From Siphonobacter sp. SORGH_AS_0500 (lineage in GTDB: Bacteria; Bacteroidota; Bacteroidia; Cytophagales; Spirosomataceae), in the NCBI RefSeq assembly GCF_002838835.1, contig NZ_NHPP01000005.1, forward strand, positions 124,001 through 188,000: 64,000 bases of DNA, read 5' to 3'. The translations under genes and the position numbers were made by a program. The notes under the pieces are model-generated. The model had not been told where the DNA came from and searched no databases. It saw nothing but the letters and a program-made list of their open reading frames with translations. Positions 48,831 through 64,000 of the stretch are shown piece by piece. Within the stretch, counting starts at the first letter, position 1, and each line of letters opens with the position of its first letter.

Positions 48831-51800
48831 CTAGAAACTGTAACGGGCTCCCAATTGAATCTGGTAAGGATTACCGGAGGGATTGACCACACCCGCCGTA
48901 TTTACCCGGTAGTTAAAGCGTTGAGCGGTCCGGTCGAAGCCAGGAATGGCAGCATTTCCATTGGCCGCGGGTACGCCTAAACCGTATAAGGTCTGATTTC
49001 CAAACGTCTTCGTAACTCCCCAATTCTTATTCAGTAGGTTAGCGAAGTTAAATACGTCGGCAGAGATTTCCAGAGCGTGGTTTTTGTAGAGCTTAAATTT
49101 CTTGTTGGCCCGTACATCAAACGTACCAAAGAAACCGTTGATACCCCCGTTACGCTCGGCAATTTTACCTTCGTATTTGAGAATATAATCCTTGATGCTT
49201 TGACTTGCGTCTGGGTTATCCAAAATGGACTGAAGACCCGCACGCACGTTCTGGGGAACTTCTCCATTGGAACGGTTGAAGATAAACGCCAGATCGTTGG
49301 TACCTACGAAGTCGCCGTTATTATTGGCACCCGAAAGCATGGAGTAACGCGTACCTCCAATACCTGAGTAACGAACACCAATCGTAATGCCCAAGAACGA
49401 AGGAGAAGTCGCCGCTAATACTACTTTGCTACGGAAATGGTTATCTGAATAAGTCATTCGACTCAAATCCCGTGGATCATCTTTCACGGGTAATGAAAGC
49501 GTTGCCGTGTTGGCTACGTTACCATTGTAGGAAGTATTATCACGAGCATCATTCCAGGTGTAGCTCAGTGTAATTTCTCCGTCTTTGAAGTATTGATACG
49601 TTGCGTCGGCAACAAAAGCAAACTGATTTACTTTGCCCTGACTGTTTAATTCCAGCACGCGACCCAATTTCTTGCTGATCCGTCCTTCTAACCAGTCGGG
49701 TACTCCAGACTCAGGCATGGTGCTCAAAGGTACGTACACGCCCCGGTTATCTTCATTCGCTAAACGGAAGAGAGGATCAGCCACCATGTTACGATCAACG
49801 TACATGTAGTTGTTACGTCCCAATGACATATATCCAGCGATTCCTACGCGAAACTTGTCCGTAATGAAGTGGCTATAGGAAATGTTTGCTTTGTACAATA
49901 CCGGAATACGAGCGTCTGGAGCATTCGTGTTAATAGTCGGTAACTGGAACTGAGCCAGACTTGGAATGCTTGAGAAGTTATTGCGGTAGGCGTTAAAGTC
50001 TGGTGTTGGGATATTCGGAGAACGTACATCCACCGTCGCCAGGTGTTTTCCATCAAATGTCAGGTTATTAATCACCATGTAGTTATTGATGTCAGAGGCG
50101 AAAATACCGGCTCCAAAACGGACGAAGTCTTTATGATTTTCGTTGACATCCCAGGTAAACTGAGCCCGGGGCTGCACCACGAAAGCCTTCAGTTTATGAT
50201 CCGTACGGATGCCCAGCTCGTCAAACACAGTCTGGTTGAAAGGCGATGAAGGGTAATAGGTATAATCCAAACGCAAACCAGCTGTCATGTCTAGCCCCCG
50301 AGCTAACTTCGTCTCCATCTGTCCATAAATACCAGCGTTTAACGTATTCCCGGTTACTCCCCAATCACTCATCAAAGGTACTTCCCGGTAATAGCGGTAA
50401 GGCTTGAGATCGTTAAAATTCTGTAAAGCCGTTGTCCCTGCCTTGGTATCCACGTTATAATGGAAACGTCCATTGACTTCGCTACCATACACCGAATAGG
50501 CGTTCGTATACATCAGGTCCAGTCCAAAGGTGTATTGAACCTTATCCGTGTTGTAGTAAAGGTTATCAACCAGTTGAATAACGTTGTTCTTGAAAGATTC
50601 CTGAGCAAACCGGTGCCCGCCCATCTGAATAGCCGTCGTTACAGTTCTTCCATCGCTTAACTTGGATGGAACGTTTTCAACAATGGCCCGAGGAATGTTA
50701 GCCGCCGGTAACTGATCGCCAGGGCTACTTTTCTGATAGGTATATAAATGCTGTACTTTTAATTCATTCGTAATTTTAGGATTCAGCGAACTACGCAGCG
50801 TCGCCAGAAAACTGTTATCCCAGTTCAGGTCATTCCCGTAGGACTCATACAGGTTGATGGCCGTATTATCAGCCAATCCCAGTTTGTTCAGATCGTAAGT
50901 AAAGTTATTACGAACCGTCAACAGGTGCTTGTTATTGATTTGCCAGTCAATACGGGCAAAAGCAGCGTCTGAACCACGTTTTTTATCGAACGTACCGTAT
51001 TGAGACCCGTTCTGGACATGCCGTATTTATTCTGGGCAATGGCAATGTATTGATCCAGTGTAGCCGTTGTTACGTTGAAACGGTTTTCATCCGCGGGAGA
51101 CTGAATGTCGGCAATTACCAGCGGACGTGAGTCTTGTTGGTGATCCCAAACGAGGAAGAAGTGTAATTTATCTTTAATGATCGGACCGCCTAATGAAAAA
51201 CCATACTGATTCGTCGAGAAAGGAACATTCCGACGGTTACCACGAATGTCATACGGGCTCGACAGCCAGTTGGCCCGGGTATAGTTAAAGATACTTCCCG
51301 TAAATTTGTTCGTACCCGATTTGGTTACCGCACTGACGGTACCACCCCCGGCCCGGCCGAAAGTTACGTCGTACTGGTTAGTCACTACTTTAAATTCCCG
51401 AACGGCTTCAATCGAGATAGAATAAGGAGCACCGCTTCGGCTAGTGGTAGCACCCGCAGAAGTCGGGTTCTTTGCGGTCATCCCGTCAATCGTATAATTT
51501 GTGGAAGAACCTAACTGACCCGACAGGTTACTTCCCCGGCTCAGGGGCGACAAATCCGTTAATGAAGTAAAATTTCGGCCATTGACGGGTAACGCTAGCA
51601 TGGCTTTGGCAGAAACAGCCGTTGCCGTACCAATGTCTTCAATTTTATTTTTCAGACCAGAAGCCACCACCTGAACTACTTCCAGGCTTTGCTCTTTCTC
51701 CTGAACGGTCAGGTTTACACGCACAGCGTCGCCCTGGTTTAGCATGTACCCCGAGCGTTTTTGCTCGCCATATCCTACGAAGGTTGCACTCACGTCGTAA

Positions 51801-52036
51801 GGACCACCCAGGGGTAGTTCTTTGAAGGAATATTCCCCTTTCGCATTCGTAACCGTTCCGGTCGTAAAACCCGTAGAGAGGTTTTTGATCGTTACTGTTG
51901 CCCCGGGGAGAGGCATATTTTCTTTTTCTGAGATGACCCCGGAGATCGAGGCCTGAGTAGTTTGGGCAAGCAGAGGCTGGCAAAACCAGCACGAGCCCCA
52001 CACGAGTAATAGGACAGCAAATAAACTGTTTTTCAT
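48831..52036 (-). pseudogene. Oar-like TonB-dependent receptor, broken by one missing base
   Basis: A large outer membrane protein of about 1068 residues in two frames: 50918-52036 (N-terminal 372 aa) and 48831-50921 (C-terminal 696 aa). One base added near 51005 (GGTCTC to GGTTCTC on the minus strand) restores GSQYGTFDKKRGSDAAF and the barrel without a gap. The signal peptide ends LLAQ. A carboxypeptidase-regulatory-like domain (GVISEKENMPLPGATVTIKN) precedes a plug with the Oar traits NYTIDGMTAKNP, VREFKVVTNQYD and GGGTVSAVTKSGTN. The C-terminus LGARYSF is a proper barrel end. Oar-type receptors have been linked to peptide or protein uptake and export. Likely functional, with a sequencing indel. 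Confidence 0.88.
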
Positions 52037-52488: not shown

Positions 52489-52500
52489 TCATGGAACCAA
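52472..52500 (-). promoter_or_regulatory. Consensus promoter facing the Oar-like receptor
   Basis: On the minus strand, TTG at 52500-52498, an 18-base spacer and TAGCTTTG at 52479-52472 match the consensus exactly. The -33 lies in the last codons of the upstream flavoprotein gene. The transcript would have a leader of about 430 bases, or could be a separate small RNA. A chance match is possible. Confidence 0.4.
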
Positions 52501-53940
52501 CTTTCGGTTTTCCTTAATCTTAAACACATCTGCTAAGGCCCGCTTGGCGGCGTGATACCCGCACATGCCATGCACGCCCCCGCCCGGTGGCGTGGAAGAA
52601 GAGCAGATGTATAACCCTTTTCTGGAAGTACGGTAGGGCGAGAGTCGCAGGGCCGGACGGGTAAATAACTGACCAATGTCCAGAATTCCGCCATTAATAT
52701 CACCACCGATGTAGTTAGGATTATACGCTTCCATTTCGGCGGTATTAAACGTATGGCGGGCTAGAATCCGGTCTTTGAAACCCGGAGCAAAGCGTTCGAT
52801 CTGATTTTCGATTACTGCCGTACGATCCAGCGTAGAACCGTGCGGAACGTGGCAATAGCCCCAAGCCGTGTGTTTTCCTTCGGGTGCCCGCGAAGCGTCA
52901 TATTGACTTTGCTGAGCCAGTAGCACAAAAGGGTTATCGGGGTGTTTGCCTTCGGAACTTAGTTTTTCCGTATACGTAATCTCTTCAAGCGTATTACCTA
53001 GATGAAGCGTTCCGGCTTTTCGGCATTCGGCATTTTTAAAAGGAATCGGTTCATCCAATGCCCAGTCTACTTTAAATACACCCATGCCGTAACGATACCG
53101 ACTCAACTGATTTCGATACAAAGACGAAAATTCGTGTCCCGCAATTTTCAAAAGCTGCTTTGGTGTAATATCGAATAAAACGGCATGACTCGAAGGCAGC
53201 TGCTTCAGAGAAGTAACATAAAAATTGGTTTGAATCTTTCCGCCAATCGATTCAAAGTAAGCCCCCAATGCCTTGGCAATGGATGCTGAGCCTCCTTTGG
53301 GAATGGGCCAGCCGCGTAAATGTCCCGCCGTCAATAATACCAGACCAATCGCCGACGTCGTCCAGTTACTCAAGGGTTGAATGGCATGAGCGGCCATTCC
53401 GGCCAGTAACCCCCTCCCCTGCTGACTTTTAAAAAGTCCGCTAAACCAGGTGGCCGGAGGTAAAGCGTGTAAACCGAAACGGGCAAAATCAAAGGGATGC
53501 GAAGGGAAACCTAAAGGACCGAGGGTATCGACGGCTATTTTCGGCCATACTTTCGTGAGAAAACGGGCCATGGTTGCATAACGCTCCTGATCTTCTGCTA
53601 ACGTCTCAGCCGTTTTTTCAATGGAATGATAGAGAACAGCGGGGTTACCCTGATCAAAAGGATGAGCCGCCGCCACTTCAGGATACACGTATTCCAGACC
53701 GAATTTTTCGAGCGGTAAGGTATTGAAGAACGGCGAGCCTGCCGCCAGGGGATGAATGGCCGAGCAAATGTCGTGTTTAAAACCGGGCAGGGTTAACTCC
53801 TGCGTGCGAAGTCCGCCCCCAATCATCGATTTTCCTTCCACCACCAGAACCGAAAGTCCTGCTTCCTGCAAGGTAATCGCTGCCGCCAGTCCATTCGGCC
53901 CTGAACCCACCACTACCGCATCGAAATCTCTTTTTGTCAT
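52489..53940 (-). CDS. CrtI/phytoene-desaturase-like FAD-dependent oxidoreductase
   Basis: A 483-residue flavoprotein. The N-terminal dinucleotide motif is VVGSGPNGLAAAITLQEAG followed by the Glu of VLVVEGKSMIGGGLRT. The C-terminal FAD-contacting segment is SSSTPPGGGVHGMCGYHAA. The fold is that of phytoene desaturases and related amine-oxidase-like enzymes, but no carotenoid genes are near, so the substrate is unknown. No signal peptide is visible. It is the last gene of the redox operon, 13 bases after the SoxC-like gene, which suggests it acts on the same compound or its product. Confidence 0.82.
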   Translation of the reverse strand: MTKRDFDAVVVGSGPNGLAAAITLQEAGLSVLVVEGKSMIGGGLRTQELTLPGFKHDICSAIHPLAAGSPFFNTLPLEKFGLEYVYPEVAAAHPFDQGNPAVLYHSIEKTAETLAEDQERYATMARFLTKVWPKIAVDTLGPLGFPSHPFDFARFGLHALPPATWFSGLFKSQQGRGLLAGMAAHAIQPLSNWTTSAIGLVLLTAGHLRGWPIPKGGSASIAKALGAYFESIGGKIQTNFYVTSLKQLPSSHAVLFDITPKQLLKIAGHEFSSLYRNQLSRYRYGMGVFKVDWALDEPIPFKNAECRKAGTLHLGNTLEEITYTEKLSSEGKHPDNPFVLLAQQSQYDASRAPEGKHTAWGYCHVPHGSTLDRTAVIENQIERFAPGFKDRILARHTFNTAEMEAYNPNYIGGDINGGILDIGQLFTRPALRLSPYRTSRKGLYICSSSTPPGGGVHGMCGYHAAKRALADVFKIKENRKLVP

Positions 53941-53953
53941 GTCTTAATTTTCC

Positions 53954-55192
53954 TTACCCATTCCTCAAAAGAACCCGGCCATCGGGCTTTAAAACCCAGC
54001 CCGTAATGGGATTAAAATGATAGCCCCCCTTACTTCCCCGGGCAGCGGCTAATGCTTTGTAGGTCGGTTGCTGGTAACCCGTTTCATCCGTTACCCGGCT
54101 TTGAATTTCCGTTTCGCGACCATCCCATTGCCAAAGGTAACGAAAGCCCGTATGAGCTTTGTCCAGGACAGGACCGCTGAGTTGAGCCGGATTCCAGCTT
54201 TTCCCGGCATCGGTACTGATTTCCACTTGCTGCACTTTTCCCCTTCCGCTCCAGGCGATGCCCCGAATTTCGATCCAGCCTTTTTGCACCTGAGCCGGAT
54301 AGGCTGGAAAAGTAATGATGGAACGGGCGTCGATATCAAAACTAAAGTAGCGGATTTTCCCGTCTTTCACGGGTTCGGTATACTTAGAGGTTTCCTCACG
54401 AGTCATGTACGGAGCATCCGAAAGCTCAATTCTCCGTAACCATTTGATACTCATGTTTCCTTCGTAGCCGGGTAGGAATAATCGGAAAGGATAGCCCTGC
54501 TCGGGACGAATCGCTTCGCCATTCTGAGCGTAGACAATCATGGCATCGTCCCACCCTTTCTGTATGGGAATACTACGGGTCATCACTGCCGCATCCGAAC
54601 CTTCGGCTAAAAACCAGGTTGCTTTCGGGTTCACGCCTACCTGTCGGAAAATCGTGGAAAGCATGACGCCCGTCCATTCGCTCTGGCTGGTTAGTCCACA
54701 AATATCCTGGGGGCTTAGTTTTTCGCTGCCGGAACGGAAGTTGCCCGAACATTCCAGAAAACAGATGCGGGAAACCGAAGGAAAACGTTTTAAATCTGCC
54801 AAGGTGAGCACGAGGGATTTTTCTACCATCCCGTGAATCACTAACTCATGTTTGGCCGGATCAATGGCTGGAACGCCGTTGTGGTTTCGCTCAAAGTGTA
54901 AATCTGAGGGAGTGATGGTGCCGAACAAATCCTGTAAAGGCGTTCTTGACGAAATGTCCGAAGGTTTTTTAACAAGTTTCTCGAATGCCGAACGAGTACC
55001 GACCTGCCCCGGTGGAACACCCGGTATTTTAGTAGGGTCTGTTAACTCCGCTTGTGTAACAGCAGCCTGAACGGCACTGGCAAAGGGAGCTTCGGCTAAA
55101 ACTACGGCGGCAGCGGCAGCTCCACCGAGCAGTTTTCGTCGGCTAACCTTGGTTTGCAGCAGCGTAGGTTTTTCTCCGGGTATTACTTTCAT
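53954..55192 (-). CDS. SoxC-like molybdopterin oxidoreductase (sulfite dehydrogenase family)
   Basis: A 412-residue periplasmic enzyme of the sulfite oxidase family. The N-terminus carries a twin-arginine signal (SRRKLLGGAAAAAVVLAEAP). The Moco-ligating cysteine is Cys148 in ICFLECSGNFRSG. The conserved LFLPGYEGNMSIKWLRRIEL stretch and the C-terminal Mo-co dimerisation domain (GKVQQVEISTDAGKSW) are present. SoxC with SoxD oxidises protein-bound sulfane sulfur in Sox systems. Here no SoxXA, SoxYZ or SoxB is present, so the substrate may differ. It lies six bases from the cytochrome gene. Confidence 0.88.
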   Translation of the reverse strand: MKVIPGEKPTLLQTKVSRRKLLGGAAAAAVVLAEAPFASAVQAAVTQAELTDPTKIPGVPPGQVGTRSAFEKLVKKPSDISSRTPLQDLFGTITPSDLHFERNHNGVPAIDPAKHELVIHGMVEKSLVLTLADLKRFPSVSRICFLECSGNFRSGSEKLSPQDICGLTSQSEWTGVMLSTIFRQVGVNPKATWFLAEGSDAAVMTRSIPIQKGWDDAMIVYAQNGEAIRPEQGYPFRLFLPGYEGNMSIKWLRRIELSDAPYMTREETSKYTEPVKDGKIRYFSFDIDARSIITFPAYPAQVQKGWIEIRGIAWSGRGKVQQVEISTDAGKSWNPAQLSGPVLDKAHTGFRYLWQWDGRETEIQSRVTDETGYQQPTYKALAAARGSKGGYHFNPITGWVLKPDGRVLLRNG

Positions 55193-55198
55193 GACGTA

Positions 55199-55762
55199 CT
55201 AGCGAATAATGGGCCCACCCCTACGATCATCGAGGATGTACCTTTTCAGGGCGGGCATCTGAACTGCCGGAAGCGTTTGAGCGTTCAGTTCGGTTCCGGG
55301 TTTGATTACCCGATTGGCTTCGAGCAGGAAGGCAGTTAAACTGTATACTTCCTCGTCCGTCAGCGTTCCGGGCTGATTAAAAGGCATGGCCCGGCGAATG
55401 TAATCGAACACCGTCGTGGCGTAAGGCCAGTAATTCCCAATGGCTTTTCCTTGAGATGAATCGGTCGAAACTAATCGGTCATTCGGCCCTTCCACGCCCG
55501 TCACGCCATGACAGGCCGCACATTTCTGAGCAAAAATGGATTTCCCCTTTTGAGCCGTCCCCGAACCTTTAGGTAAACCCTTGCCATCGGGTCTTATGTC
55601 GATGTCCCAGCGTTGAATATCCGCCGGAGTGGCCAGGCGACCGAAATTGAAAATAGTATCTGATGTGAACACTCCCCCAGACGATGGCTTTGAAAAAGAT
55701 CCAAAGCCACTCGCCCATCCAAGGATCAGTATCGACAAAGTAATTTTGAAAACTGCGTTCAT
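55199..55762 (-). CDS. SoxD-like periplasmic cytochrome c
   Basis: A 187-residue exported c-type cytochrome, electron acceptor for the adjacent molybdoenzyme. A signal or anchor helix opens the protein. The haem motif CAACH is at residues 81-85. The segment NYWPYATTVFDYIRRAMPF, followed by GTLTDEEVYSLTAFLL, is characteristic of SoxD, with the Met of RRAMPF the likely axial ligand. It is short relative to two-haem SoxD proteins and has a single haem. The spacing to its neighbours is three and six bases. Confidence 0.88.
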   Translation of the reverse strand: MNAVFKITLSILILGWASGFGSFSKPSSGGVFTSDTIFNFGRLATPADIQRWDIDIRPDGKGLPKGSGTAQKGKSIFAQKCAACHGVTGVEGPNDRLVSTDSSQGKAIGNYWPYATTVFDYIRRAMPFNQPGTLTDEEVYSLTAFLLEANRVIKPGTELNAQTLPAVQMPALKRYILDDRRGGPIIR

Positions 55763-55765
55763 ACA

Positions 55766-57438
55766 TTAATCGTACTTACCCGCTTTTAAGGTACTTTCCG
55801 AGAGAGCATACTTGCGATTCACCCGATCTAACACCACCTGAATGGAATCTTTGTTTTCGTCAATGCCCTTTAAAATTACCCGGTTCCCACCGTTAATGGC
55901 TGAGTAATGTAAAATCATGCGTTTACGAAGGGGAGCCTGAGCTTTCACGGTGCCGTTGTTACTCTGATCCCAGCCCACGAATTTGGTGCTTTCCTTTCCG
56001 GGTTCCTCGGCCTCGGTAACCATGCCGCGAGTCCGACGGGTTGAACGGGCCAACGGATGTATTTTTTCGTCTTCCGAACCAATGATTTTACGAGTCTCCG
56101 CCGAAATCCAGGGATCTTCTGCGGGTTTTTCCTTCCGATCCGAACGAGCCGCTTTTCCTTCAATCTCACGGGTTTCGCGGTTTTGTCTTCCCCGATTTTT
56201 ATCTTGTAAATACAGCACTTTATTCACGGTATCGACTTCGTAATAGAAGACGCGTTGCCCTCCCGCTACGCCCGTTAATTCAAAGGTTCGGTTAATGTCC
56301 CGCATGGGCGATCCGCCGCCATTGGATAAATCCAGATCGACCGGACGGTTGACTTTAAAGGTCAAAGAGGTCCATTTCTCGAACGTAACCTGTTGCCAGC
56401 GAACGCTGTCTAGAGGAGAATAAGGAATAACCTGATTGTTAACCTTGAATTCGGTTACGTTGTAATTACCCCGTAACTCCGAAATGCCTTTTAAAGCGGG
56501 CTGTTTATAAGGATCATAGAGGAAGTTTACGCCTTGTAAATAGAAGAACCAAACGATGAACACGCCGATTACACCCGTTTTTAAAAGCACTCGACTCCAT
56601 TTCTGCCAGGGTTTATTGAACGTGGGGTAATAATGTACGGGAATGGTTAATCGCTCTTTAATCAGCAGGTTATAAACCTTTGGAATGTCATAAATCAGTA
56701 AAAAAGCCGACAGTAACACGAAGTAAGAACTGTACACGTGAACGCCGCCGTCGTATTCAAAGTTAACAAAAACGATGTCGGCCAAGGCTCCAAAGAGTAA
56801 TACGGCCCCCCAGAAGGTAGTAGCCCGGAAGAATAACAGGGCTCCAGCCAGCACTTCCACCACTCCGGCGAAGACTCATACCAGGGCACAATACCGATGG
56901 ATAGCCAGTAAATTTTCTGAAGCGTTAGATCACCAAAATCCGTATTAAGCACGCCCAGCGAAGGGTAAGGCAGTTGCGTGGGGAACAGTTTAGTATACCC
57001 AAAACCGATGATACCAATACCAGCCCGGTAACGTACCACAACGCGAAGCCAGTAATAGAGCAGATTATATTCTTTGGGTTGCGGCTTTTTACGTTCGGCA
57101 ATGACGGTCCAAATACCGCCAACCACTACCGCAAAAATCAGGGTAATCACCCAGGTAGCATAACCGTTTAGGGTACTGCCAAAGATTTTATTACCAAAAA
57201 TATTGAGTCCTGAACCGAAACGGGCGATGTCGTAAAGATCCCGGTAATGCAGGCTGGTCCAGTCGAAGGTAAACAGGTCCTTGTACCAACCCGGATCATT
57301 CGGCAGTGAAATGCTCACAAAAAACACGAAAGCAACCCGGAACAGGAATTTCGTTAGCTTCGACCAGGGCTTGGGTGAAGCGGGCTGTTCAACCCAATTG
57401 ACCTGCGACGTGGGGGTTTCCAGAGGAAAAGATGACAT
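55766..57438 (-). pseudogene. DoxX-like membrane protein with charged insert, broken by one missing base
   Basis: About 557 residues in two frames: 56695-57438 (N-terminal) and 55766-56863. One T added near 56870 (TCTTCG to TCTTTCG on the minus strand) gives VPWYESFAGVVEVLAGALL, which matches the paralogue upstream. It has about seven membrane helices with the DoxX-type YWLRVVVRYRAGIGIIGFGYTKLFP core, then a beta-rich extracytoplasmic domain (YNVTEFKVNNQVIPYSPLDS to DSIQVVLDRVNRKYAL). Within that domain is an extra stretch of about 90-110 charged residues (RQNRETREIEGKAARSDRKE) absent from the paralogue. DoxD-type proteins pass electrons to quinones, but the role here is unproven. Probably functional. 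Confidence 0.8.
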
Positions 57439-57443
57439 GGCGT

Positions 57444-58784
57444 TTAGAGTTTAAGGCCTTTCCGACGACCGACTTTTTTAGCTTCATGAATCAGGTATTT
57501 CTTATCCAACCGATCCAATACGACCCGGATCGAATCCCGATTTTCATTCAATCCCGACAGTATGATCTGATTAGCTGATGGACGCTCGTAATGCAACACC
57601 AGCGTTTCGGTTTTATAATGGCTGTTCTTGTTGTTCAGGTGAAGCGTCTGGTGTTCCGTATCAATTTGATAGGAATAATAATGCCGCCCTATCGAGCCCG
57701 TGGACTCGTAATTGCGAAGGGAATCCTCGGCGAAAATTTCTTCCGTATTCAGTGAATCAATCAACACCGGACGGTTGGAACGAACGCTCAGCGTAGCCCA
57801 TTTTTCAAAAACCACGTCTTTCCACCGGAGCGAATCGGTTTTGGAATAGGGTAACTCATTCCCATTTACTTTAAAACTGTTCACATTATACACGCCCGCT
57901 GCCTGAGCTAAGCCCGGTTGCTGGGGATACTGATACGGGCCTTTTTGGTGACTCGCATAGGTTTGGTAACCGTAGAAAAAAACGAAGAAGATGATAAACC
58001 CAGCCTTAGCCAGGAGTCGGCCCGTCCGTTGCCAGTTTTCCGAGAATACGGGTTGGAAACGGTTGGGTACGGTTGCCCTTTCCAGTGATAACAGATTGAA
58101 CAGACGGATGGCATCGAAAGAAAACAGGAACAGAGCCAGACTGATTAGATAAAGGCTATACACGTATTCGCCCCCTTCGTAAGCCAGATTAGAGAAAAAG
58201 ACGTTTCCGGTGAAAGGCAAAATGATGAGCGTAGCAATGGTTGCCGTTTTACGATGTAACAGCAGTAAACCGCCCACGATTTCAACCAAACCCAAGAACG
58301 ATTCATAAGTAGGCACAACACCCAGACTGATGGAAAACAGCTTCCAGGCCGAAAAATCGCCGTAGTTTGTATTCAGGTGACTCAACGAAGGCAACGGCGA
58401 CTGTTCCGGGAAAAACTTAAGGAATCCATACGCCAGAATACCCACGGCCAAGCGGTAACGCACCAGCACGCGAAGCCAGTAATAGAGTCGATTATACTCC
58501 CTAGAAGTTTTATCCAGGGCCGTCCAGATGATTGAACCAACTACCGCGATACCAGCGACGATACCCCAATTGAGAAAACTGTCTGCTCCACTAATGAATT
58601 TAGGACTGTACCGCGAAAGGTAAAAAATCTCCCGATAGCCTAAACGATCCCAACTCAAGAGCTGAGCGTAATACTTGTAATCCAGCGGAACAACCTGAAT
58701 GAAAAAATAAATAAAAACAAACCGGAAGAGAATTTTCTCTGCTTCAGTCCATTGGGACGATGACACTTCAAGCGTAGCTGCCAT
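57444..58784 (-). CDS. DoxX-like membrane protein with C-terminal beta-rich domain
   Basis: A 446-residue inner membrane protein with about seven helices, including the DoxX-type YWLRVLVRYRLAVGILAYGFLKFFP (quoted in part: RYRLAVGILAYGFLKF) and FLGLVEIVGGLLLLHR. Residues about 300-446 form a soluble beta-rich domain (YNVNSFKVNGNELPYSKTDS, VVFEKWATLSVRSNRPV, DSIRVVLDRLDKKYLI) that is probably periplasmic. The protein is a tandem paralogue of the next gene, five bases away. Neither domain has visible metal or haem motifs. A role linking the periplasmic redox pair to the quinone pool is a hypothesis based on DoxD and on position. Confidence 0.78.
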   Translation of the reverse strand: MAATLEVSSSQWTEAEKILFRFVFIYFFIQVVPLDYKYYAQLLSWDRLGYREIFYLSRYSPKFISGADSFLNWGIVAGIAVVGSIIWTALDKTSREYNRLYYWLRVLVRYRLAVGILAYGFLKFFPEQSPLPSLSHLNTNYGDFSAWKLFSISLGVVPTYESFLGLVEIVGGLLLLHRKTATIATLIILPFTGNVFFSNLAYEGGEYVYSLYLISLALFLFSFDAIRLFNLLSLERATVPNRFQPVFSENWQRTGRLLAKAGFIIFFVFFYGYQTYASHQKGPYQYPQQPGLAQAAGVYNVNSFKVNGNELPYSKTDSLRWKDVVFEKWATLSVRSNRPVLIDSLNTEEIFAEDSLRNYESTGSIGRHYYSYQIDTEHQTLHLNNKNSHYKTETLVLHYERPSANQIILSGLNENRDSIRVVLDRLDKKYLIHEAKKVGRRKGLKL

Positions 58785-58795
58785 AGCGATTGGGA

Positions 58796-60148
58796 TTAAT
58801 AACCTTCGTTTTGAACAAGTGCTTTGTCTACAAGTAACTGGTCAATGGGTAAGGGCAGAACGTAGCGGTTAGGGTCGGTTACTCCTAGTACGGCTCCCGC
58901 CCGGTTCGTGCGAACGAGGTCAAACCAGCGATGCGGTTCCAGGGCAAATTCCAGCCGGCGTTCGTTTTCGATAGCCAGTAATAAAGCATCGGCAGTAGTG
59001 GCAGTGGTCGCGGTTAAACCCGCCCGATCCCGAACCGCGTTGAGATCACTAGCCGCCTGGGTTAGCTTATTCTGCTGCGTCCGGGCCTCGGCCCGAATGA
59101 GGTACTGTTCAGCAATGCGTAAGACGTACGAAGGATCTGAACCGGGGTTGCGGTAATACAGATTGCCGTACCAACGATTCTGGTTATCCTTCGCAATTAA
59201 GGTGTTACGGTTTCCTGCTACAGAGGCATCATTGAGCAAGGTTACCAAAGCGTCGCTCGGTGCCCACTGACGGGTACCACCATTCGTTTGCGGTTGCCAC
59301 TGCCCCCGGTGAGCATTAATTTCGGTGGTTCCGTTATAAAAAATCTCAAAAATGGATTCCTGGGTACCGCGAACGTTATTTGCAAAAAAGGCACTGTAAG
59401 GTTTAATCAGACTATAATTAGTTGTTTCACCGATCAATTTGGTGGCATACGCTTCCGCCTGAGCCCAGTCTTTCTGATAGAGATAATACCGGGCTTTTAA
59501 GGCCCAAACCGTTTTCTGCGTAGCCCGGTACCGATCCACCGTATTGGTTAACAAAGGCTCAGCAGCGTCCAGATCTTTAAGGACCTGAGCGTACGTTTCA
59601 GCCTGGGTGCTACGGGCAATACCCCGGTTATCCGTCGGACGAACAGTAGGCTGCGTAATGAGCGGAACGCCACCCCAGATACGAGCCAGGTCGAAATAAG
59701 CTAGTGCCCGAATGAAGTAAGCTTCGCCGATGTACTGTTTTTTCAGGGCATCCGTCAGCGTAGGATCGGTTACTTCATTAACCTTCACAATAACGTTATT
59801 GGCCCGGTTAATGGTTTGATAAATAGCAGTCCAGACACCGCTGACCATGCCATTATCGGCGTTTACCCGGTGGTTAATAAATTCCTGCACAATTGACTGC
59901 GAGCCCGTCCACTGCACATTATCACCCGACAAATAACCGATGGCCTGAAAGTTGGTACCATAGTAATTACTGCCAGCCAGAGCACTGTATACGCCACGAA
60001 CGGCGGTTTCAGCAGAAGATTTATCGGTAATGGTCACGGCATCCGAAATGGATTCCTTGGGTTTCACGTCCAGAAACTTCTGGCAAGACGCTAAAGCCGT
60101 GATACTGAATAACGTAATAAGATAGGTATGTACTTTCATGGATGTCAT
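58796..60148 (-). CDS. SusD/RagB-family lipoprotein (redox operon)
   Basis: A 450-residue surface lipoprotein with lipobox ALASC followed by QKFLDVKP. SusD traits are GEAYFIRALAYFDLARIWGG, RIAEQYLIRAEARTQQNK, ENERRLELALEPHRWFD-type sequence and the ending LVQNEGY. It is among the shorter members of the family. The ATG at 60148 abuts the SusC stop; a second ATG at 60139 is possible. Only 11 bases separate its stop from the DoxX-like gene, so import and redox genes share a transcript. Confidence 0.93.
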   Translation of the reverse strand: MTSMKVHTYLITLFSITALASCQKFLDVKPKESISDAVTITDKSSAETAVRGVYSALAGSNYYGTNFQAIGYLSGDNVQWTGSQSIVQEFINHRVNADNGMVSGVWTAIYQTINRANNVIVKVNEVTDPTLTDALKKQYIGEAYFIRALAYFDLARIWGGVPLITQPTVRPTDNRGIARSTQAETYAQVLKDLDAAEPLLTNTVDRYRATQKTVWALKARYYLYQKDWAQAEAYATKLIGETTNYSLIKPYSAFFANNVRGTQESIFEIFYNGTTEINAHRGQWQPQTNGGTRQWAPSDALVTLLNDASVAGNRNTLIAKDNQNRWYGNLYYRNPGSDPSYVLRIAEQYLIRAEARTQQNKLTQAASDLNAVRDRAGLTATTATTADALLLAIENERRLEFALEPHRWFDLVRTNRAGAVLGVTDPNRYVLPLPIDQLLVDKALVQNEGY

Positions 60149-63100
60149 TTATAAAGTCACGTTAATACCCAGTTGCAAACCCACGGGCTGGGGTGGCGTA
60201 CCGAGATCAATCCCCTGCTGGTTTTGATCACTGCTGGCACTTGATTCAGGGTCGAGACCCGTGTATTTTGTCCAGAGCCAGAGGTTACTGCCCGCCGCGT
60301 AGAGTCTCAGGGTTTCGAGACCTGCTTTTTTCGACCAGTTTTTCGGGAACGTATACCCCACGGTGAGCGAACGTAGTCGTAAGAACGAGCCGTCTTCCAG
60401 CCAACGACTTCCGCCGTCCCGGTAATTATTCACGTTTACGCCATCAGGACGAGGCACGTCAGTAATGTCGCCGGGTTTCTGCCAGCGAGCATTGTTACTC
60501 GCGAAAATCACGCGAGCGGCATCGCGGGCTCCCCCACCCTCGCCAAAGAATTTGTTATGATTGTAGATTTTATTCCCGTACGAAAACGAGAAGAACAGAT
60601 TCACATCAAATTTTTGTAAGTCAGGTTATTGGTCAATCCACCGAAGAGCTTAGGCCAGATGCTACCGAGAATCTGACGGTCAGCCGTAGTAATTTTTCCA
60701 TCTTTGTTTACGTCTTCATACACCACATTACCCGTCTGCGGATCAACGTATAACTGCTTGTATACCCAGAAAGAATACAACGGCGAACCCTGTTGTTGAA
60801 GAATCAGATCACGACTGCCATACCGTAAAGGCGTTTCGAGTTTCTCGATGTTATTGACGTTACGAGCCAAATTCAGACTTGTGGTCCATTTCAATTCCGG
60901 CGTTCGAATATTCACCGATTGCAAGGCTACTTCAAAACCTTTGTTACTGATTTCAGCGGCATTACTCCAATACGTGCTAAAACCAGTAGTACTGGGAAGC
61001 GTTAGCAGTAATAGTCCGTTCGTAGTGTATTTATTATACACGTTAAATTCAGCCGATAACCGTCCGTCAAATAAGGACGCATCCAGACCCACGTTCCATT
61101 GCCGGGTTTTCTCCCACTGCAAATCGGGGTTGCCTAACTGCTGGGGAGCGATCCCGGGATTTCCCTGATACGAAGCTCCACCGGTCCACAATCCCTGTGC
61201 GGCGAAATTACCAATACCGTTCTGGTTACCCGTTATCCCGTAACTAGCCCGTAATTTCAAATCACTCAGCACCGGTACGCTCTTCAAAAACTCTTCCTGA
61301 CTGATTCGCCACGCAGCTCCGACGGATGGGAAGTAGCCCCATTTCCGGTCATTACCGAAACGCGAAGAACCATCGGCCCGAACGCTGGCATTGACCAGGT
61401 ATTTTCCAGCGTAATTATAATCGGCTTTGGCAAAGAAGGAAGCCAGGGTGTTCTTACTCCAGCTCTGCGAACCAGCCGTGGTAGAGGCCGAAGAAATCTG
61501 GGTAAAGGCATTGTTGGCAAAACCACGACCTTCGGCGTAAGTACGTTTCAGTACATCGCTTTGCAAGCTATTCCCTACTAAAAGTCCAAAACCGTGTTTA
61601 CCGACTGTTTTGCGATAAGCCAGCGTTTGCTCATTTAACAGACTGGAGAATTGCGTCTGTGAAGAAGTCGCTAAACCCGAAGGACTTCCCGCAATGAGCA
61701 GGTTGTTCCAGTATTCAGATTCGTCGTAACCATTATAGTCAACCCCGAAACTCGTGCGGAACTTTAAGCCGGGTAACAATTCAGCTTCGCCGTAGAGGTT
61801 ACCAATGTAACGCAGGCTGATGGAGTGAACGTCATAATTCTCAAGCAGTAGCGTTAGGTTATCAAAACCTGCCCGGCCTACCAGTACGCCATTTTCATAC
61901 GGAGAAAGATACGTAGGCGTATGTAAGGCCGCTTGCAGCAATCCACCTTGTGGGCCATCCCCGGCCCGGGCCTGATTGCGGTACGTTCGACTCAGAATGT
62001 TACTCACCCCTACCTGCACTTTGTCATTTACCTTCTGATCGAGGTTAATCTTGAAGCTGGCTCGTTCGAAATTGATGGGCTTAATGATGGCTTCCTGCTG
62101 GGTATAACTTCCGCCAATGTAATAGCGGGTATCGTTAGTACCTCCCGCCAGCGAGAGGTCATAGTTTTGCAGATGGGCCGTTCGAAAAAGTTCACCTAAT
62201 CGATCATACGTTTTTTGCTCTTCGGGTAAGCCCCGACCGCCTTCACTGACGGGACGGAAGGGACGATTTGCTTCGGTACGATTGAGTGAGGGCGTATCTT
62301 TTCCGGTATTAATCCACCATTCGTTAACTAATTGAGCGTGTTCGGGCCCAGTGGTCAAGTCCCAAAGCCGTGCGGCCTTATTCCAGCCCGTCGAAGCGTT
62401 GAAACTAATCTTTGGTTTCTGATCGAACTTACCTCTTTTGGTAGTAATCAGGATTACCCCATTGGCCCCGCGAGAACCATACAGAGCCGTTGCCTCAGCA
62501 TCTTTCAGAACCTCAATACTTTCAATGTCATTAGGATTGATGTCAGCGATGGGAGACGTGGCTTTCCCACCTGTCCCGATGGACTGCAAACTGGTATTAT
62601 TGATAAAAACGCCATCTACGACGTACAGAGGATCATTATCGGCATTAATTGAAGTCGCTCCGCGAACACGAATATTTACCGTTTCGCCGGGAACGCCCGT
62701 ATTACTGGAAATCTGAACGCCGGGAATTTTACCCTGTAGCTGGGCATCGAAACTTCCCGTCGGTATATTTTTTGTTTCTGAAGGATCAATCTTGCTAATT
62801 GAGCCAATCAGATTTTTACGCTCCTGAGTACCGTACCCTACGACGATAACCTCACTCAACTGACTTTGTTCCGGCACTAACTGAATCCGTAGATTCGTCT
62901 GATTACCAACCACAATTTCCTGGGTTTTATACCCGATGAATGAGATAATTAATCGCGTAGAAACTTCGGTGTTTGGTATTTGAAATTCCCCATTGGCATT
63001 CGTTGTGACTCCCTTCGAAGAGCCTTTGATCTGAATATTTACTCCAGGGATACCATTGCCATTCTCATCGAGCACTTTTCCGTTAATCTGAATGCGGAGC

Positions 63101-63222
63101 TGGGTATATACGTAGGCATGGGTTTCAGGAGGTCGGGCTGCAAGCCCACCACTCAGGCTGAGTCCTCCTGCAATAAGGGTTAACCTCCATGATAAGGGTA
63201 CGGAAGACAGGTAAGGTTTCAT
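60149..63222 (-). pseudogene. SusC/RagA-family transporter (redox operon), broken by one missing base
   Basis: About 1024 residues in two frames: 60601-63222 and 60149-60604. One T added to the run near 60610 gives NNLTYKNFDVNLFFSFSYG, a normal late-barrel SusC sequence. The N-terminus has a signal segment and a carboxypeptidase-regulatory-like domain (GKVLDENGNGIPGVNIQIKG). The plug shows SEVIVVGYGTQERKN and YGSRGANGVILITTKRG. The barrel ends LQLGINVTL. ATG at 63222 is preferred over TTG at 63240. A consensus promoter lies about 190 bases upstream. The break is probably a sequencing indel, since the downstream partner genes are intact. Confidence 0.9.
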
Positions 63223-63415
63223 CAAAATCTTGCTATTCAAATGGTTTTCAATAACATATTAATTACTAGTAGATATATAGAATAAATAGACTATATATCT
63301 AAGACTTCAACAAACTTTCCAAGGTATGAGCAAAGTATCAGGCGGAATTTGCTCAGTCTTTGAGGTTTATAAGATGATTGTCCTATTAAAGTGTAGGCAG
63401 AACCAAAGATCGAGG

Positions 63416-63445
63416 CAAAGGTAGAAGGGCATTTTTTAAATACAA
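63416..63445 (-). promoter_or_regulatory. Promoter of the SusC-to-flavoprotein redox operon
   Basis: On the minus strand, TTG at 63445-63443, a 19-base spacer and TACCTTTG at 63423-63416 fit the consensus. The leader would be about 190 bases, long enough for post-transcriptional control. Confidence 0.6.
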
Positions 63446-63585
63446 GTATAATCTATAGATTTTATAGACTAAAAATCAATTTTATGCGATTACATGATCT
63501 ATTGTCTGTTTATGATTTGTACTTCAGAAATAGTTATTCAATCTATGCATACGTACGGTAGCTAGTCATCGCCACGTGAGCCAAA

Positions 63586-63636
63586 CCAAAGCCCCACAAC
63601 TAACGATATAACTATACGTTAGTTATGGGGCTTTGG
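63586..63636 (-). terminator. Strong hairpin terminator after the DUF1080 gene
   Basis: Twenty-base arms (63586-63605 and 63617-63636) pair with one mismatch around an 11-base loop. The gene to its right ends at 63653 and runs toward it. Confidence 0.75.
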
Positions 63637-63652: not shown

Positions 63653-64000
63653 TTATAATTCTTTTACTCGCATGTTTCGGAATTTTACGACTGATCCGTG
63701 TCCCAGAAAACCGATGTGGCCGGATGTTCTTTTCAGTCCGGGGTGTTCTTTATGATCCGGCGTGCCTTCTTTGGTGGCTTCAGCGGTGTCACCATCCAGG
63801 ATGGTCACTCCATTCAGGACGACCTTTACACGCGTGCCTTTCAGCGTAACTTCTTCGGAGTTCCATTCGCCTACGGGTTTCATCGCCTCCCGCTTCGCCG
63901 GGATGATCCCGTACACGGAACCGTGGTATTGGTACGGTTGCAGGTTTTTATACTCGAAAGCATCATTATCCAGAATCTGAAGTTCCATGCCGGTATACGC
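63653..64000 (-). CDS. DUF1080 (3-keto-disaccharide hydrolase-type) protein, 3-prime part only
   Basis: The C-terminal 116 or so residues of a DUF1080 protein; the gene continues beyond the window. Visible features are MELQILDNDAFEYKNLQ (the first Met is internal, inside the family's G-M-E-hydrophobic-Q-hydrophobic-D motif), VGEWNSEEVTLKGTRVKVVLNG and the terminal GHIGFLGHGSVVKFRNMRVKEL (quoted in part: HIGFLGHGSVVKFRNM). The fold is a concanavalin-like beta-sandwich. Some members cleave 3-keto sugars, while most are unassigned. It is co-directional with the redox operon but separated from it by a terminator. Confidence 0.85.
   Translation of the reverse strand, partial: AYTGMELQILDNDAFEYKNLQPYQYHGSVYGIIPAKREAMKPVGEWNSEEVTLKGTRVKVVLNGVTILDGDTAEATKEGTPDHKEHPGLKRTSGHIGFLGHGSVVKFRNMRVKEL

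Follow-up and report, generated by a model that had tools for sequence, protein, structure and literature searches.

Here we describe a seven-gene operon encoded by a 64,000-nucleotide stretch of the draft genome of Siphonobacter sp. SORGH_AS_0500 (contig NZ_NHPP01000005.1, positions 124,001 to 188,000; hereafter the window), and document its recurrence among diverse genera of Bacteroidota. The operon joins a SusC/SusD outer-membrane import pair to two membrane proteins (named here DoxA and DoxB, together DoxAB), a cytochrome c (CytC), a molybdopterin enzyme (SoxC) and a CrtI-like flavin adenine dinucleotide (FAD) protein (CrtO). We lean, with modest confidence, to a reading in which this conserved operon imports an organosulfur compound of large size or amphiphilic character, a sulfonate being the likeliest, and in which SoxC and its cytochrome c oxidise the released sulfite to sulfate. 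The wider proposal that it represents an undescribed, widespread organosulfur system of Bacteroidota, with the DoxX-lipocalin heteropair as a new inner-membrane receptor or transporter, CrtO as a new desulfonating enzyme, and sulfite oxidised or exported, we put forward as doubtful; no description of the cassette was found in the open-licence PubMed Central literature. If true, organosulfur compounds would join the substrates imported by SusCD, in a corner of the sulfur cycle that has received little study, and proteins now named 'phytoene desaturase family' or 'DoxX family/hypothetical' would become testable candidates for sulfur metabolism. The cassette also points to a membrane protein pair, combining a helical core with a predicted lipocalin-like barrel, that has no Pfam match.

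A conserved seven-gene operon

Positions 63222 to 52489 carry the seven genes, all on the minus strand, with intergenic gaps of 0, 11, 5, 3, 6 and 13 bases. The first encodes a SusC-type TonB-dependent outer-membrane receptor (60149..63222; TIGR04056, 747.3 and 110.6 bits on two pieces), and the second a SusD-type surface lipoprotein (58796..60148; PF14322, E 2.6e-28; PF07980, E 4e-23; also matched by solved SusD homologues). They are followed by DoxA, a membrane protein of 446 residues with a predicted C-terminal lipocalin-like barrel (57444..58784); DoxB, its partner of the same architecture, carried by two overlapping open reading frames, or ORFs (55766..57438); CytC, a mono-haem cytochrome c with a SoxD-like domain and a probable signal peptide (55199..55762; PF13442, E 1.4e-11); SoxC, an enzyme of the molybdopterin sulfite-oxidase family with a twin-arginine N-terminus (53954..55192; TIGR04555, 478.8 bits); and CrtO, a FAD protein of the CrtI/amine-oxidase fold (52489..53940; PF13450 and PF01593) in which no signal peptide is evident by eye. 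The TIGR04056 score of SusC, 747.3 bits against a cut-off of 368.25, and its position beside a SusD bearing PF14322 and PF07980 identify the two as a SusC/SusD pair.

Scanning one genome per species with DoxB returned 220 confirmed relatives, and the locus counts given here refer to the best 80 of these 220. Presence of DoxB at all 80 is by construction, as the loci were picked by it; DoxA occurs at 80, SusD at 79, SusC at 78, CytC at 70, SoxC at 69 and CrtO at 58, with YeiH (31), a peptidase of family S51 (20) and a DUF1684 protein (18) as further neighbours. Contig ends explain the absence of SusC at two loci (L090, L109; L denotes a locus and G a genome) and of SusD at one (L090). Uninterrupted runs of all seven genes are found at 35 loci and of the first six at 50, and the first six stand in order at 67. 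SusD and DoxA are adjacent on the same strand at 63 loci, DoxA and DoxB at 80, and CytC and SoxC at 69, the gap being 100 bases or less at 57, 77 and 63, respectively; the 16 commonest neighbour pairs always share a strand, save one YeiH-SusC pair. Median gaps are 20 bases for SusC-SusD, 19 for SusD-DoxA, 24 for DoxA-DoxB, -1 for DoxB-CytC, 3 for CytC-SoxC and 12 for SoxC-CrtO.

Named records place the cassette in Spirosoma, Runella, Dyadobacter, Chitinophaga, Niastella, Pedobacter and Mucilaginibacter, and the best 80 DoxB relatives, which include one Flavobacterium record and one metagenome-assembled genome labelled Bacteroides, belong mostly to genera of Cytophagales, Chitinophagales and Sphingobacteriales. 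A prior reading of the window, made from its letters and ORFs alone (the sequence-only reading), had joined the import and redox genes in one unit and asked whether this arrangement was peculiar to one genome. Numerous genera share the order, strand and spacing of the genes, and the cassette recurs across the best 80 of 220 loci; the operon is confirmed, and is not a one-genome oddity. Recurrence of the gene order across relatives rules out neighbours brought together by chance or by assembly. Some loci are elaborated: six (L079, L082, L083, L095, L116, L121) carry a second SusC/SusD pair with tetratricopeptide-repeat and DUF1684 proteins between DoxB and CytC-SoxC. A second, diverged type of DoxA/DoxB pair, 33-48% identical and with its own SusC/SusD, occurs in L056, L058 and L059, near YeiH in L056 and L058 and near a chromate-transporter-like gene in L056 and L059.

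Co-occurrence was examined in a set of 150 genomes from the family of the host, a DoxAB genome being one with a DoxA match of at least 425 bits. G096, whose variant pair scores 410.8 bits, was left out of the DoxAB set; this genome encodes both CrtO and YeiH, and SoxC is lacking at E<=1e-20. DoxAB occurs in 48 of the 150. SoxC is present in 43 of these 48 versus 2 of the 102 others (45 genomes altogether; Fisher p 2e-29, relatedness ignored), and CrtO (E<=1e-100) in all 48 versus 28 of the 102. The SoxC orthologues are 70-100% identical and clearly separate from SorA-like paralogues (~35%). Forty-one of the 46 SoxC places are on the contig of DoxA, 30 being no more than 5 kb and 38 no more than 15 kb from that gene; three lie on other contigs and two in genomes without DoxAB (G043, G107), which hold a bare cytochrome-SoxC pair. 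In a class-wide sample of 295 genomes, SoxC (E<=1e-60) appeared in one, the window's own, and adjacent DoxA/DoxB-like pairs in three (G000, the window's source, with G004 and G378); the cassette is therefore not general in the class.

The strand and spacing claimed for the seven genes by the sequence-only reading hold, with the reservation that susC and doxB are not single frames in the draft. Frameshifts break susC near 60.60 kb (ORFs 60601-63240 and 60149-60604) and doxB near 56.87 kb (ORFs 56695-57438 and 55766-56863); congeners have intact frames for SusC (L038, 1053 residues, and L040) and for DoxB (557 residues; L037, L038 and L040). The source assembly is a draft of 5.08 Mb in 31 contigs (completeness 92.6, contamination 4.9), and a TonB-dependent receptor adjoining the operon (48831-52036) likewise consists of two overlapping frames. 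Three frameshifted genes within 15 kb hint at indel errors in the draft, and the breaks in susC and doxB may reflect either assembly error or decay. The cassette copy of another congener, L039 (G072), carries many frameshifts, far more than that of the window.

SoxC and CytC as a candidate sulfite dehydrogenase

SoxC passes the curated SoxC model (478.8 bits; cut-off 420) and falls below those for SorA (NF052245, 127.1 of 600 bits) and SorT (NF052247, 120.6 of 570 bits). Its best solved relative is 2xts_A (E 2.2e-88), and CytC matches 2xts_B (E 6.6e-29); 2xts is Paracoccus SoxCD, a sulfane dehydrogenase. SoxD has two haem domains; CytC, which matches PF13442 and PF00034, shows a single CxxCH in 187 residues and a single domain matching 2xts_B. 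The twin-arginine pair of SoxC, together with Cys148, Arg102 and Arg153, is kept in 70 of 70 aligned SoxC sequences. In chicken sulfite oxidase, C185 is the molybdenum cofactor (Moco) cysteine and R138 and R190 are the first two substrate arginines; SoxC has a counterpart of each (C148, R102, R153). In animal sulfite oxidase, Arg153 lines up with the second arginine that follows the Moco cysteine; the corresponding residue of 2xts_A is glutamate.

SoxZ (PF08770) was detected in none of the 150 family genomes, the host draft included, versus 25 of 198 genomes of the phylum in a control with the same search, and the classical Sox pathway is rejected on that count. The original claim that SoxXAYZB is missing stands for SoxZ, not found in the host genome or 149 relatives, the search having been confined to that component (SoxXA, SoxB and SoxY were not searched). 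Because SoxZ was not found and the sulfite-oxidase-type arginine is kept in every aligned sequence, the sequence evidence favours, and does not prove, a role for SoxC as a sulfite dehydrogenase.

The same observations bear on an account based on inorganic sulfur, in which DoxA/DoxB would act like thiosulfate:quinone oxidoreductase and SoxC-CytC as a sulfane or sulfite dehydrogenase, yielding energy from thiosulfate or polysulfide, while SusC/SusD import a sulfur carrier. We rate this account improbable. It draws on the fit of SoxC to the SoxC model and the SoxD-like character of CytC, on the name 'DoxX family protein' borne by DoxA in source records, and on a distant variant of the cassette (L163:12144-13592) in which a metallo-beta-lactamase-rhodanese protein lies between DoxB and CrtO in place of SoxC. 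Against these stand the SoxZ search, negative in all 150 genomes, and the sulfite-type arginine, the retention of DoxAB without SoxC and CytC, the occurrence of CrtO in 48 of 48 DoxAB genomes, the lack of DoxD, DoxA or DoxX Pfam matches to DoxA and DoxB, and the presence at 78-79 of 80 loci of SusC/SusD, an importer presumably superfluous for small anions.

Putative sulfite export and related genes in relatives

A script found 11 of the 80 loci to lack SoxC, and the hand-checked set comprises eight: L086 (with SoxC 33 kb away in the genome) and L090 (a 3-kb contig) were dropped, and L136 was moved to the SoxC side, as its SoxC is masked by a longer, spurious frame and it is the same contig as G016:C2, which has the gene. 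YeiH is encoded at seven of the eight versus 24 of the 70 others (Fisher p 0.006, a post hoc value obtained from eight hand-checked loci with relatedness ignored). YeiH is likely a sulfite exporter; SuyZ/YeiH is argued to extrude sulfite for oxidation in the periplasm (PMC11582611). The sequence-only reading had proposed an operon in which the imported compound, perhaps organosulfur or sulfated, is itself oxidised in the periplasm. The sulfur theme is upheld by the neighbours of relatives, which include YeiH, an SsuD-like monooxygenase, a cysteine/methionine (Cys/Met)-type sulfhydrylase, an Rrf2/CymR-like regulator, redoxins and, beside some CrtO genes, a sulfatase with a protein of formylglycine-generating enzyme (FGE) type. 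The proposed substrate of oxidation gives way: because YeiH stands at seven of eight loci lacking SoxC, oxidation of sulfite looks likelier than that of the imported compound.

By profile coverage and frame length, the 63 strong YeiH places of the family divide into a long (40) and a short (23) type. The long type lies within 5 kb of CrtO at 14 of its 40 places, and five of these 14 (L169-L173) are not part of a cassette; the short type has a SorA-like sulfite dehydrogenase gene no more than 2 kb away at no fewer than 13 of its 23. SsuD-like genes lie within 8 kb of SorA-like genes at 5 or more of 57 places, and within that distance of SoxC at 5 of 57; counts of SorA-like neighbours are lower bounds, derived from the SorA-like places listed, which number at least 103.

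Contexts of CrtO outside the cassette

Proteins of the CrtO type are currently recorded as 'phytoene desaturase family'. CrtO itself scores 50.5 of the 238.1 (TIGR02734) and 141.5 of the 1000 (NF045689) set as cut-offs for carotenoid enzymes, and a carotenoid role is rejected on these shortfalls together with the many sulfur-themed contexts. Forty loci outside the cassette were fetched, of which 36 contain CrtO; a sulfur-related neighbour (YeiH, Cys/Met sulfhydrylase family, Rrf2, redoxin, SsuD-like, sulfatase or FGE-type) stands beside it in 24 of the 36, as read by eye and with the background rate not measured. In a putative Emticicia these are a Cys/Met sulfhydrylase-family protein, Rrf2, a redoxin and YeiH; in a putative Spirosoma, CrtO accompanies a sulfhydrylase-family protein, an S51 peptidase and a redoxin; in a putative Runella, an S51 peptidase, an amino-acid permease, an SsuD-like monooxygenase, an amidohydrolase and SusCD; and in a putative Larkinella, SusCD with adjoining sulfatases. 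Sulfatases beside SusCD are common. A Dyadobacter-like locus (L203:7318-11440) has CrtO flanked by a sulfatase and an FGE-type protein, an order repeated in several loci.

These contexts weigh on two further accounts. SoxC-CytC might be a protective sulfite sink that rides with a SusC/SusD locus for a sulfur-free nutrient, CrtO and DoxAB modifying a lipid or isoprenoid; the partial resemblance of CrtO to carotenoid enzymes, the likeness of the DoxAB barrels to lipid-binding lipocalins and the fatty-acid hydroxylase genes near some loci fit this view, to which we nevertheless give a small chance, a little above that of the inorganic-sulfur account, given that the sulfur-themed neighbours of CrtO at 24 of 36 loci outside the cassette arise independently of SoxC. 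Alternatively, cells short of sulfur might use the operon to obtain it from sulfate esters or sulfonates, with SoxC producing sulfate for re-uptake and assimilation rather than for energy or detoxification. Such a role would suit several genes that relatives carry close to CrtO or to the cassette: those for an Rrf2/CymR-like regulator, sulfhydrylase-family proteins, redoxins, transporters of sulfate-permease and DASS type, and a sulfatase accompanied by an FGE-type protein; yet converting sulfite to sulfate before assimilation would waste reductant, export by YeiH would lose sulfur, and the window's operon has no sulfatase among its Pfam hits, so that of all the explanations considered this appears the least probable.

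The DoxA/DoxB pair

The DoxX superfamily includes DoxD of thiosulfate:quinone oxidoreductase, MauE and NACHO/TMEM35A. DoxA and DoxB are membrane proteins with a helical core and a predicted lipocalin-like barrel, and neither was matched by Pfam DoxX, DoxD or DoxA at E<=10, in searches whose filters discard most matches above ~0.1. A lone DoxA-like paralogue of the host (G000:C11:461184-462035; L035, L070), about 29% identical, stands without partner or cassette, and similar single genes are present in many genomes of the family. Pfam matches below the cut-off were MauE for DoxB (0.035) and DoxX for the single paralogue (0.035), and an hhalign comparison of DoxA/DoxB with one DoxX-like protein extended over 25 columns at a probability of 5%. 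The structure model of DoxB from L037 has a predicted local distance difference test score of 67.6; lists of structure matches for DoxA are dominated by the barrel, which resembles lipid-binding lipocalins, and barely cover the helical domain. The 'DoxX-like' label of the sequence-only reading accordingly retains the NCBI names and a weak fold match, and finds no sequence-level Pfam counterpart.

DoxAB persists without SoxC in 5 of the 48 DoxAB genomes and without both SoxC and cytochrome at 8 of the 80 loci, and two genomes keep SoxC and cytochrome without DoxAB. The modules thus separate in both directions: DoxAB is rejected as the electron acceptor of SoxC-CytC, and the suggested flow of electrons from the cytochrome to the DoxX-like proteins is not borne out. 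Since CrtO accompanies DoxAB in 48 of 48 genomes and DoxAB outlasts SoxC, the pair is tied more strictly to CrtO and import than to SoxC.

A proposed route and the evidence against it

In the organosulfur reading that we prefer, SusC/SusD would, by analogy with their family, bring the compound through the outer membrane. DoxA/DoxB, in the inner membrane and with barrels predicted to be periplasmic, would bind it and hand it to or across that membrane. CrtO, assisted in some species by the SsuD-like monooxygenase, may then oxidise the compound in the cytoplasm and free sulfite; this is the weakest step. Sulfite would leave through YeiH where encoded and be oxidised by SoxC, electrons passing through the mono-haem cytochrome to the respiratory chain. 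Disposal of sulfite by SoxC-CytC, YeiH or both is the best-supported step, judged from the families, the active-site residues and the SoxC/YeiH pattern, and the substrate, the sulfite-releasing enzyme and the part played by DoxAB are suggested more tentatively. Direct observation covers which genes are present and in what order, their conservation and co-occurrence, the conserved residues and the negative SoxZ search.

Most known SusC/SusD loci serve the uptake of glycans, and some that of peptides. The list of solved SusD homologue structures yields no substrate. As the sequence-only reading had noted, the operon has no sulfatase or glycosidase: Pfam hits of its genes include no carbohydrate-active enzyme and no sulfatase, the wider surroundings not having been scanned for carbohydrate-active enzymes.

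Several observations weigh against the organosulfur reading. An organosulfur cargo for SusC/SusD is conjectural, and the putative role of DoxAB is derived from predicted fold and topology. None of the enzymes encoded by the window's operon is of a type known for C-S bond cleavage. YeiH and SsuD-like genes (E<=1e-40) occur in none of the six Siphonobacter genomes, and Xsc (E<=1e-100) in none of the 150 family genomes, this last being less firm as the control positives were two archaea, neither of them over the cut-off; on the SsuD-like and Xsc counts we reject the idea that the host has a canonical desulfonating enzyme, and the proposed third and fourth steps are consequently incomplete for the host genome. 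Every SsuD-like match falls below the curated cut-off. Over whole genomes, YeiH occurs no more often where DoxAB is present (19 of 48) than where it is lacking (41 of 102), and the association of YeiH with loss of SoxC has the post hoc origin given above. Among the curated models, SoxC scores above the cut-off for SoxC itself and not for SorA or SorT, and its conserved Tyr271 and Arg351 lie two columns and one column, respectively, from the active-site tyrosine and third arginine of animal sulfite oxidase (Y322 and R450 of the chicken enzyme). Finally, 12 of the 36 CrtO loci outside the cassette (L182, L184-L186, L189, L190, L192, L193, L196, L199, L201, L206) have no sulfur-related neighbour, again with no background rate measured.

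Upstream region

A terminator-like hairpin (63586..63636, minus strand; RNA fold -37.1 kcal/mol, z -9.05; equalled in stability by 0 of 200 shuffles) lies between the operon and the upstream gene. Downstream of this hairpin, which parts the operon from that gene, stands a promoter-like sequence of Bacteroidota type, CTTG-N19-TACCTTTG (63416..63446, minus strand), found by a pattern scan with the Bacteroidota consensus. Matches of this type number three in the window versus 1.4 expected, a count reached by 16 of 100 shuffles and hence not significant; the stricter TTTG form has no match at 63446-63416, and a sigma-70 scan of the window is at chance level (16 vs 14.7). The 'one good promoter' of the sequence-only reading is thereby reduced to a single Bacteroidota-type match. 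Positions 63653-64000 cover the terminal part of a gene whose product has a 3-keto-disaccharide hydrolase domain (PF06439), and a related gene sits upstream of the cassette in the congeners L038, L039 and L040.

Comparison with known systems

Like SusC/SusD polysaccharide utilisation loci, the operon is headed by a SusC-SusD pair; unlike them, it contains redox enzymes and has no Pfam hits to carbohydrate-active enzymes or sulfatases. It resembles Paracoccus SoxCD (2xts) in its matches to SoxC and to a SoxD-like cytochrome, and differs in having one haem motif, arginine in place of the 2xts_A glutamate, and no SoxZ found. The SsuD-like, SorA-like and YeiH gene pairs of the same family likewise set a desulfonating-type monooxygenase or YeiH near a sulfite dehydrogenase, although the dehydrogenase is a different one (~35% identical) and the YeiH is of the other subtype. 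To our knowledge, the use of cysteate and 3-sulfolactate by Paracoccus pantotrophus involves no SusC/SusD, DoxAB or CrtI-like flavoprotein. No lyase was seen in the operon described here, and YeiH is encoded at only 31 of the 80 loci; what the two systems appear to share is the combination of a YeiH/SuyZ exporter with a periplasmic sulfite dehydrogenase for sulfite derived from organosulfonates (PMC11582611).

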